NCBI GenBank assembly: GCA_024653215.1
Contig: JANLFU010000002.1
Coordinates: forward strand, 266,447 to 330,446
Reading direction: 5' to 3'
Length of the DNA stretch: 64,000 nucleotides
Origin: Candidatus Saccharicenans sp.
GTDB taxonomy: Bacteria > Acidobacteriota > Aminicenantia > Aminicenantales > Saccharicenantaceae
The position numbers and the translations under genes are program-made. Each line of letters begins with the position of its first letter. The stretch's first letter is position 1. This document shows positions 9,991 through 14,055 of this stretch, piece after piece. The notes beneath the pieces are model-generated. The model did not search any database, had not been told where the DNA came from, and was given only the letters and a program-made list of their open reading frames with translations.

Positions 9991-11271
9991 ATGAAAGAAT
10001 ACAGTCTGATCGACCTGGAAGAAAAGGAACTATCCGGTCTCAAGAAGATTGCCAACTCCCTCGGGCTGGAAGAAGAGGACATTGAAAATTCCAGCCGGCA
10101 CCACCTGATCTTCAAGATCCTGGAGGCCCAGGCCAAGAAGCAGGGCCTGCTGTTTTCCGAAGGTGTCCTGGAATGCCTGGAAGACGGCTTTGGCTTCCTG
10201 CGGGCCCCGGAGTTCAGCTATCTGCCCAGTCCCGACGACATCTACGTCTCGCCCTCCCAGATCCGCAAGTTCCAGCTCCGGACCGGAGATACCATTTCTG
10301 GCGTGGTCAGACCTCCCAAAAATGGAGAAAAATACTTTGCCCTGATCAAGATAGAAGCCATAAATTTCCTGCATCCCGACGTGGTCCTGGAAGCCAGGCG
10401 AAATGTCCAGTTCGAACAGCTGACTCCCGTCTATCCCTTCGAACTCATCAAGCTCCAGGACGGAAACCCGAAGAATATGAACGCCAGGGTCATGGAGCTG
10501 CTGACCCCGATAGGGAAGGGGCAGAGGGGCCTGATCGTTTCCCCGCCCCGGGCCGGTAAGACCACGCTGCTCAAGACCATTGCCAAGTCCATCGAAAAGA
10601 ACCATCCCGAGATATTCCTGATAGTACTGCTGGTGGCAGAGAGGCCGGAAGAAGTTACCGATTTCAAAAGAAGCGTTAACGGCGAGGTGGTGGCCTCGAC
10701 TTTCGACGAGCCGCCAACCCGCAACGTCCAGGTGGCCAACATCGTCCTGGAAAAGGCCAAGAGGCTGGTCGAATTAAAGCGCGACGTGGTCATCCTGCTC
10801 GATTCCATCACCAGGCTGGCCAGGGCCCATAACGCCATCGTCCCGCCCTCGGGCAAGGTGCTTTCGGGTGGTATCGATGCCAATGCCCTGAACAAGCCCA
10901 AGAAATTCTTCGGCTCGGCCCGTAAGATCGAGGAAGGCGGCAGCCTGACCATAGTGGCCACGGCCCTGGTCGATACGGGAAGCCGCATGGATGATGTCAT
11001 TTTTGAAGAATTCAAGGGCACCGGCAACATGGAAATCAACCTTGACCGTCGCCTGGTTGACAAGAGAATCTTCCCGGCCATTGATATCAGCCGTTCCGGA
11101 ACCAGAAAGGAAGAGCTGCTGATCGGAGACAAGGACCTGAACCGGGTCTGGATACTGCGCAAGATTCTCAGCCAGCTTAACGAAGTGGAAGCCATGGAAC
11201 TGCTGCTGGAAAAACTCTCCAAGACCAAGACCAACAGCGACTTCCTGGATGCCATGAGCAAGGGCCTGTAG
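9991..11271 (+). CDS. rho: Transcription termination factor Rho
   Basis: 426 aa; cold-shock RNA-binding domain [14 protein letters not shown], Walker [38 protein letters not shown] upstream. Confidence 0.98.
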
Positions 11272-12190
11272 CGGGCGTCTGGCAAGGGCTATTTTTTCCA
11301 CAAACATAAATTTTACTCGAGAGAATCACCCTGTCTTCTTATTTATGGTGACGGACTTCGTTTTCTGGCCTGTGCCGGATAATGATTCTGGCCCCTTGTC
11401 CCGCGCTGCTTAAAAAATAAGCTTTCATAAAAAAAATACCAGCACAGGTCTTCTTAATAGAGTCTCTCCAGATTTAAATCACAGAAAATAAATAAATTAG
11501 AAGAAAGTGTCGCGTAACTAAAAGATTATAAATAAGATAGATGAAATCCACCTGGCCTATCGAAAGCCATTAAGAATGTACGCCAGTAACACGGTTCCGA
11601 CTTCGAATCAGGCTCCAAATTTCAAGTTTTTAAAAAAAGCACTTAATTATGATGGGATTTGATATGGCATAATCCGCAGAATTCGTCAGCAGGTGAGTCG
11701 GCCTGGGATATTATTAAGAACATAATCTGGCTAATTCTTGGAATAAGGAGTCGGTCAGGTTCGTCAGTGGGGTTATAAGCTATTCAAGCTCAGATTTCCA
11801 GCCGAGGACTTATTAAAAAAGCTATTAAAGCCAGGGGTTAACGGGATATCCTGAAATTGGGTTCTATATAAAAGTTAAATATCTCGGAGTCCAGGGAAAC
11901 CAGTTGACTTGATAAAACAAAGGTTTCGGGACCGCGCGGCTATATATCAACTTAAAGGTCATCGAGGAAAATAATCCTTTAGGCCCAGGCCAATACAAAA
12001 TTCAGACTTTTAATAACTGATTAAATTAAATCGAAGTACGTTTATAAGGCAAGCAAATCGCTATCATATGTTTAATTGGGAATGAGGAACTTTTCCACAG
12101 TTGACCAAAAGCTGGGTATAAGAGAAATTCACAATCTTAACAGGCAGGCAAATAATTGATTATAAAAGAGATAGAAAATAAAGCTATATT

Positions 12191-12218
12191 GTGTCGCATA
12201 AGTTATATTATGTAAACT
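12191..12218 (+). other. dif site (XerC/XerD chromosome dimer resolution site)
   Basis: 28-mer GTGTCGCATAA-GTTATA-TTATGTAAACT: 11-bp XerC arm, 6-bp centre, 11-bp XerD arm. XerC arm core CGCATAA as in E. coli dif; XerD arm TTATGTAAACT matches the recalled B. subtilis dif arm. Lies between convergent genes. Confidence 0.85.
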
Positions 12219-12253: not shown

Positions 12254-13156
12254 TTATTTATCCTGGTTATCGTTAAGCTTGAGTTGCCCGGGATTGGCTT
12301 TGCCCCCTGATTCTTCCTTAAGTTGCCTGATAATCCCCTCAAGGATATTGATCAATTCCTGCCTGGTTACGACCTGTTTCTTGAATTCTATTCTGAGCCT
12401 GAAGCTCTTATTGTCTTTAGGTACATAATTGAATACGAAAAATTTTGGTTTTTCTTTATCTTTTTCTTCTTTTTCCTTAAAAAGCTTGGTCAGGTCGCGG
12501 GTATCAGTCCTGGTGAGGCGGTTTTGAATGATTCGCTCTACAACCTGGGACATTAGTGTTTCTGGTTCAACCTTGGCAATCTCGATTATGGTACTGCGGC
12601 TGGTTATGCCGGCCTTTTTTAGTTTTTCGCGGAGGTCTACGGGTATGCGGGAAACAGAAATAATCTCGGTTATGGTTGACCTGGCTTTGCCGATCTTATC
12701 GGCAACTTCCTGGTGGCTGTAGCCATAAAGATTCATCAGGGCCTTAAGGCCGTCAGCCTCTTCAAATATATCAAGATCCTTTCGCTGCAGGTTCTCAATG
12801 AGGCTGATTTCCATGGCCTCCTGATCGTCAACAGTCATCTCAATACACGGAATTTCTTTCAACCCCAGGTTCTTTGAGGCCACAAACCGCCTTTCTCCGG
12901 CGATAATCTCAAATTTTTCCCCTTTGGGGCGGACGATGATTGGCTCCAGGACGCCCTTGGCCCTGATTGAATCCATTAATTCCTGGATATCTCCCAACTC
13001 GCTACGCGGCTGCCTGGGATTTGGTTCGATTCTATCCAGCGGAATCATTCGGATCCTGGGCGCAGAGGTCTTGGAGGCAATCAGCTCAACGAAATGAGGG
13101 TCATGCCTCATGATTAAATTGTCAGGAAGGCCTGATTTTTTAGTTTTTGTTTGCAC
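12254..13156 (-). CDS. parB: ParB/Spo0J-family chromosome partitioning protein
   Basis: 300 aa; PLDRIEPNPRQPR, IAGERRFVASK (CTP-binding box), SLIENLQRKDLDIFEEA, HTH region YGYSHQEVADKIGKARSTI. Confidence 0.93.
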   Translation of the reverse strand: MQTKTKKSGLPDNLIMRHDPHFVELIASKTSAPRIRMIPLDRIEPNPRQPRSELGDIQELMDSIRAKGVLEPIIVRPKGEKFEIIAGERRFVASKNLGLKEIPCIEMTVDDQEAMEISLIENLQRKDLDIFEEADGLKALMNLYGYSHQEVADKIGKARSTITEIISVSRIPVDLREKLKKAGITSRSTIIEIAKVEPETLMSQVVERIIQNRLTRTDTRDLTKLFKEKEEKDKEKPKFFVFNYVPKDNKSFRLRIEFKKQVVTRQELINILEGIIRQLKEESGGKANPGQLKLNDNQDK

Positions 13157-13907
13157 GTTCGATCAACTCCTCGGCCACAGATTTATATTGAATAGCCCCT
13201 ATGGAATCAGGGGCAAAGGTAAATATACTTTCTTTATAAGCCGGGCTTTCCTCCAGCTTGACACTCTTGGAAATATAGGTCTTAAAGACCTTATCTCCAA
13301 ATACTTCGATTATTCTATCAACCACATCCTTGGAAATATTTGTTCTGCGGTCATGCAGTGTGATAATAACCCCGATGATTTCCAGCTCCGGATTGGCAAT
13401 CTTTTTAACCTTATCTATGGTTTCGAGCAGGTCATCGGTGCCTTCAAGACATAAATAGGACGATTGGATTGGTATAAGGATATGGCTGGCGGCTACCAGA
13501 GCATTTAGTGTAATGAGGCCGAGCGTGGGTGGCGTATCTATAAAAATATAATCATAATGATCACGAACAGTATTGAGAGCATCTCTGAGCCGATAATGGC
13601 CATCAAATTCACCTATCAAAGCAGGCTCAAGCTTGGCCATGGATATCCTGCTTATGGCCACGTCCAGCCCCGGAATTGTGGACTTCACGATTATATCGGA
13701 AATCTTTGTGTTTTTGTCCATGAGAACATCGAACAGCGACCTGGGAATCTCATGAGGATTATTGACTATCGAAATCGTGCTGTGAGCCTGTGGGTCCATA
13801 TCCACCAGGAGAACACGATGTCCCATAAGGGCTAGGGCGGCAGAAACATTAACGCAGGTAGTGGTCTTCCCCACTCCGCCTTTTTGATTGGTTACAGCGA
13901 TTATCAA
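13140..13907 (-). CDS. parA: ParA/Soj-family partition ATPase
   Basis: IIAVTNQKGGVGKTTTCVNVSAAL deviant Walker A, VLLVDMDPQAHST, YIFIDTPPTLG. ORF call starts at ATG 13946, but GGAGG (plus-strand CCTCC 13914-13918) sits 6 nt from TTG 13905-13907, which gives MIIAVTNQKGG. Confidence 0.93.
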   Translation of the reverse strand: MIIAVTNQKGGVGKTTTCVNVSAALALMGHRVLLVDMDPQAHSTISIVNNPHEIPRSLFDVLMDKNTKISDIIVKSTIPGLDVAISRISMAKLEPALIGEFDGHYRLRDALNTVRDHYDYIFIDTPPTLGLITLNALVAASHILIPIQSSYLCLEGTDDLLETIDKVKKIANPELEIIGVIITLHDRRTNISKDVVDRIIEVFGDKVFKTYISKSVKLEESPAYKESIFTFAPDSIGAIQYKSVAEELIERANKN

Positions 13908-13937
13908 GCTAATCCTCCGGTTAATAGCTTTAATAAA

Positions 13938-13966
13938 AATATACAAAAAAAGAATTGTAAATACAA
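13938..13966 (-). promoter_or_regulatory. Candidate parA promoter (TTGTAT-17-TATATT on minus strand)
   Basis: Plus-strand ATACAA 13961-13966 (-35) and AATATA 13938-13943 (-10), 17-nt spacer. Confidence 0.5.
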
Positions 13967-13992: not shown

Positions 13993-14008
13993 TGTCGGCA
14001 GGCCGACA
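13993..14008. promoter_or_regulatory. 16-bp palindrome upstream of parA, candidate ParB/ParA operator or parS-like site
   Basis: TGTCGGC-AG-GCCGACA, perfect 7-bp arms, GC-rich inside an AT-rich intergenic region. Confidence 0.45.
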
Positions 14009-14055
14009 TATCTATAAGTAATTGATAATAAAGAATATATAAAATATTCGAATTT

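Follow-up and report, generated by a model that had tools for sequence, protein, structure and literature searches.

Prediction of dif sites across bacteria, Acidobacteria included, has already been published (PMC3025954), and the site described here, from a draft genome of Candidatus Saccharicenans sp., is like those chromosomal dif/XerCD sites in its 11-6-11 layout, its single copy, its skew switch, the presence of XerC, XerD and FtsK-gamma and the KOPS-like polarity around it. It is unlike them in the DnaA-box-like and IHF-like upstream element that stands at a fixed spacing in this order, and in the parABS that adjoins it. Partition genes near dif are also carried by the gonococcal genetic island (GGI), which is mobile, inserted at dif, flanked by two dif sites and bears both parA and parB (PMC4207684), whereas the present locus has one dif and is conserved phylum-wide. 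The origin-proximal ParABS systems (PMC7333895) share with it a ParA ATPase, a ParB with CTPase-type and HTH domains and a 16-bp palindrome in or near the operon; here, however, the genes lie at the terminus beside dif, the ParB belongs to a separate clade that coexists with a canonical ori-type system, and the palindrome is TGTCGGC-NN-GCCGACA rather than of the TGTTTCACGTGAAACA type. The MatP/matS system of E. coli (PMC7394560) is comparable in that the ParABS described here would also serve the terminus region, although the proteins are unrelated and most genomes have one site, tied to dif itself, rather than many.

We propose, with a probability of roughly 0.7, that the site is the dif of the chromosome, located at the replication terminus, and that it belongs to a conserved Acidobacteriota module made up of dif, parB, parA and a dedicated 16-bp palindromic candidate centromere. 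Sequence comparison establishes the identity of dif, its terminus position, the presence of two phylogenetically distinct ParB types in one genome and the tie of the terminus-linked ParB to dif and to the palindrome; the workings of the module are set out below as a proposal.

A dif site between rho and parB

The window, the whole stretch of 64,000 nucleotides that was analyzed, forms the last part of contig C22, which is 330 kb long, in a draft genome of 2.6 Mb and 36 contigs. The site and the features on its XerC side are:

9991-11271, plus strand: rho, the XerC-side flank, 0.1-6 kb from dif among relatives and outside the module
12091-12099, plus strand: DnaA-box-like sequence TTTTCCACA, 100 bp before dif, at a spacing fixed in many order relatives
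near 12125-12133: second, weaker DnaA-box-like sequence
12149-12161, minus strand: IHF-like site AATCAATTATTTG in an A-rich element that is conserved on the XerC flank of dif, a consensus match only
12191-12218, plus strand: dif, GTGTCGCATAAGTTATATTATGTAAACT, with XerC arm GTGTCGCATAA, 6-bp centre GTTATA and XerD arm TTATGTAAACT

A sequence-only reading of this DNA had proposed the 28-mer as a near-ideal dif, and its letters, its placement and its 11-6-11 split all stand. The claimed 21/28 identity with E. coli dif is borne out (7 of 28 positions differ), as is the equality of the XerD arm TTATGTAAACT with that of B. subtilis. When the whole 2.6-Mb genome was scanned at up to three mismatches, the 28-mer occurred once and no better dif was found elsewhere, which removes the objection that the sequence might be multi-copy; within the window, the single copy at this threshold compares with an expectation of 0 from 100 shuffles. 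With a degenerate dif pattern, a matching site is found in 57 of 60 relatives, nearly always one per genome. An ungapped stack of 47 genomes has information content near its maximum at dif and an immediate drop toward parB, and the arms are constant while the 6-bp spacer varies between species, as is expected for an XerCD site. XerC and XerD are encoded in the genome, both above the NCBIfam cut-offs, together with FtsK-gamma. Judged by these sequence features, the 28-mer is the chromosomal dif, the site of chromosome dimer resolution, and an ordinary representative of its class.

Multiple dif-like sites occur in a few relatives. Genome G053 has about 20 of the form TGTCGCAKAA-N6-TTATGTCAACT, with varied centres, on contigs C96, C103, C83, C91 and C88, several of them within 24 kb of C96, a pattern like that of the pdif arrays that XerCD mobilizes in Acinetobacter plasmids. 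G064 and G079, from another family, each have more than one dif-like site.

As had been noted, dif lies between rho (plus) and parB (minus), which converge on it across a 982-bp gap of low GC; it is not mid-gap, being placed 35 bp from the parB stop codon. The wider flanks are clpX-lon-rho on one side and a sortilin-like/BNR protein on the other. Window positions 12060-12190 contain a conserved element whose parts, DnaA-box-like TTTTCCACAG at about -100, NTATCCACA at about -66 and the A-rich stretch that includes the IHF-like match, stand at nearly constant distances from dif in many order relatives, though not in all. These conserved sequences could be accessory sites for the recombination complex. 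TTTTCCACAG also precedes dnaA. A reading of the boxes as an origin array was rejected because the boxes are few and because skew, gene orientation and KOPS-like polarity converge on the site. An RNA family search of the rho-parB gap gave no match up to E = 1, and intrinsic terminators and promoters in the gap were not above shuffles. In close relatives, rho and dif are separated by as little as 0.1 kb or as much as about 6 kb, a spread that may reflect a hot spot for insertions on the XerC side of dif.

Position at the replication terminus

The view that the site lies at the replication terminus, also put forward from the sequence alone, is supported because skew, KOPS-like inversion, gene orientation and the XerC, XerD and FtsK-gamma genes agree. 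The anticipated GC skew inversion near 12.2 kb is present, with the right side in the genome's own contig falling only to about zero and not clearly negative: on C22 it amounts to about +21 G-C per kb left of dif and +2 right of it, and the best change point is at 272 kb, against 278.6 kb for dif (block permutation p = 0.004). In the near relative G010, the best change point (1,000,000) practically coincides with dif (999,784), and the skew passes from +32 to -8 per kb. There is no skew switch at dif in G024, and the complete chromosome CP070750.1 is irregular, with no clean two-arm skew pattern among 20 samples.

The KOPS sequence of E. coli is GGGNAGGG. Matches to it invert at dif both in G010 (23/5 on the left versus 8/21 on the right, p = 5e-5) and in the genome's own contig (36/17 versus 4/15, p = 9e-4), and the marks of a terminus, a skew switch and FtsK-orienting sequences, were thus found in these two. 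Genes on both sides also tend to face dif.

A second parA and parB beside dif

The parB neighbour was passed over in the sequence-only reading. It is not incidental: it is part of a second, dif-linked ParABS, whose genes are:

12254-13156, minus strand: terminus-linked parB (ter-ParB, 300 aa), with a ParB_N CTPase domain, HTH_ParB and an N-terminal GLP...MRHDxHFV motif
13140-13946, minus strand: terminus-linked parA (ter-ParA), a ParA ATPase with a KGGVGKT Walker A motif (Pfam AAA_31, 3e-56)

A ParA with a deviant Walker A motif therefore adjoins a ParB with ParB_N and HTH domains, the gene arrangement of a ParABS, and the two genes are likewise neighbours in the order relatives examined. ter-ParB matches PF02195 (4e-27), PF17762 (1e-14) and, above cut-off, TIGR00180, and its CTPase/HTH relatives with solved structures are ParB, Spo0J and Noc.

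The genome has a canonical parA-parB as well, on contig C31; these genes follow what was taken for the C-terminal end of mnmG, and the parS-like palindrome TGTTCCACGTGGAACA stands in front of them. A tree of 47 ParBs contains a branch, supported at 100/100, that sets the ter type off from the other ParBs, among them the canonical one of this genome. Four closed or nearly closed genomes give the separation of the two ParB loci, which lie at 3.64 and 0.82 of 6.0 Mb (2.8 Mb apart), 7.47 and 4.26 of 7.5 Mb (3.2 Mb), 2.74 and 0.40 of 4.6 Mb (2.3 Mb), and 1.34 and 3.07 of 4.35 Mb (1.7 Mb), or 40-51% of the chromosome. The present locus is thus not the origin-proximal one that is usual for ParABS: it is at the terminus and the ori-type copy is elsewhere.

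Further ParB arrangements were seen in individual genomes. In G010 there is another strong ParB_N match (G010:C10:1049691-1049987), 50 kb from dif and beyond the ori-type and ter-type copies. G144, G169 and G206, of the same genus, have two large contigs that each carry a ParB, that of the ter type being on C1; they look like two-chromosome genomes of the Chloracidobacterium type.

The order relatives examined have dif followed directly by convergent parB-parA, an arrangement that further families of the class and of the phylum also show; named records that have it include Aminicenantes, Vicinamibacteria and Thermoanaerobaculia bins. With a profile built from these ParBs, strong matches to ter-ParB were obtained in 141 of 247 Acidobacteriota genomes. 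Of the 79 genomes in which both dif and ter-ParB were found, 65, from 29 families, have dif past the 3' end of ter-parB, at a distance of 21-1442 bp (median 129) and never on its 5' side, and the XerD arm faces parB in 56 of the 65. In the other 14 of the 79 the two are not within 2 kb of each other, and among these dif matches some may be chance and some real. A dif match in a genome where ter-ParB was not found occurs 44 times, so the module is dispensable.

A candidate centromere that stays with dif

Two features lie in front of parA:

13993-14008: candidate centromere 'parS-ter', TGTCGGCAGGCCGACA, a 16-bp palindrome of the form TGTCGGC-NN-GCCGACA
14015-14027, minus strand: IHF-like site TATCAATTACTTA, adjoining parS-ter and matching WATCAANNNNTTR, a consensus match only

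The palindrome is single-copy in the genome, and TGTCGGC-NN-GCCGACA is common to the sequences upstream of parA in the order relatives inspected; an AT-rich sequence related to the TATCAATTACTTA site is likewise found in many relatives of the order. The exact palindrome is present in 103 of the 141 genomes with ter-ParB, leaving 38 without it, and in 1 of the 106 without ter-ParB (Fisher p = 8e-36, an optimistic value that overstates independence because the genomes are related). In most cases there is one per genome; G144, G254, G117 and G106 have several within about 45 kb, and in G144 there are up to four within about 55 kb. The 75 sites listed fall into five groups: the parA side (23), inside parB (18), between parB and dif (12), farther away within 45 kb (15) and other places (7). 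Those inside parB (18 genomes) always fall near codon 175, and constraint on the coding sequence may play a part there.

Several genomes separate the palindrome from the genes or alter it in an informative way. G274 has ter-ParB on C77 and, about 2.1 kb apart on C2, an exact palindrome and an exact dif; in G103 and G266, where ParB is on another contig, a one-mismatch palindrome lies about 140 bp from dif; and G092 and G174 have the symmetric variant TGTCGACATGTCGACA, in which both arms are changed alike. That the palindrome shifts its place and yet stays with dif is the behaviour expected of a centromere for dif; constraint from coding or from the operon would hardly account for it alone. As a sequence association, a palindromic site in or near the operon tracks the ParB type, as in a ParABS. 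It is not of the canonical type, as TGTTTCACGTGAAACA-type parS gave no match at up to three mismatches on the contig. Another candidate site for ter-ParB, TATCCACA-N3-TGTGGATA, was rejected because its right half is not conserved in the genus of the window and because, within the mismatch limits used, the pattern is absent at the locus.

Alternative explanations

In Bacillus, Noc is a ParB paralogue with an altered site, NBS, and ter-ParB resembles it as a ParB-family paralogue with a palindrome of its own, here a candidate site. It could be that ter-ParB is Noc-like or SMC-loading, labelling the terminus so that division is controlled or condensin loaded there, the ParA being regulatory. The single palindrome of most genomes and the presence of Noc among the relatives with solved structures would fit such a role, as would a score of 173 bits with the NCBIfam Noc model; this is below the cut-off of 315, however, and the model scores the canonical ParB higher (227 bits) and is therefore not specific. 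The ter-ParB, unlike Noc, is placed at the terminus and retains a cognate ParA, whose gene adjoins parB in the loci examined. We consider this explanation unlikely.

We give little credence to the idea that parAB is a chance or passive neighbour, held by inherited synteny and unrelated to an ordinary dif. The tig-clpX-lon-rho side is also syntenic in many genomes of the order, but dif and parB stay together while the distance to rho varies between 0.1 and 6 kb, and rho was not found on the stretches examined in several relatives. The link moreover spans 29 families with dif always 3' of parB, and the three genomes with parAB on another contig keep the palindrome near dif.

That the genes are the relic of a plasmid or a GGI-like integrative element inserted at dif by XerCD, an idea prompted by the parA and parB that the GGI needs for DNA secretion (PMC4207684) and by the pdif-like arrays of G053, is highly improbable, since the genome has a single dif in place of two flanking ones with mobile genes, the best plasmid and phage matches listed are 35-39% identical to ter-ParB over about two thirds of its length, with none covering 80%, and the ter-ParBs form one clade within Acidobacteriota. 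A mobile element at dif may nevertheless be the ancient origin of the module.

Proposed role of the module

If the preferred reading of a terminus module of dif, parB, parA and centromere is correct, ter-ParB would load on parS-ter as a CTP-dependent clamp, as expected from the ParB family (PMC7333895), and would spread from there over the neighbouring kilobases, dif included. The complex would be positioned by ter-ParA. In this way the part of the chromosome replicated last would be actively kept, or pulled apart, close to the division site; there, following KOPS-like sequences, FtsK would join two copies of dif for XerC and XerD. The ParABS would then do at the terminus what MatP/matS does in E. 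coli.

By extension, much of Acidobacteriota might have a dicentric chromosome, with a ParABS at the origin and a second ParA/ParB/parS at dif. Such a terminus would be partitioned actively, and dimer resolution would be linked to this partition and perhaps, through the conserved boxes beside dif, to DnaA; we put this forward tentatively, at somewhat less than even odds. The dif itself is ordinary. In titles and abstracts of the open literature searched, we found no description of a dif-linked ParABS.

Chromosomal ParABS have been described as origin systems (PMC7333895). A phylum-wide partition module beside dif, with a predicted single-copy site, would allow terminus partition, and the coupling of segregation to dimer resolution, to be tested directly. 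In addition, ter-ParB together with the palindrome provides a sequence marker for the terminus in draft genomes of Acidobacteriota.
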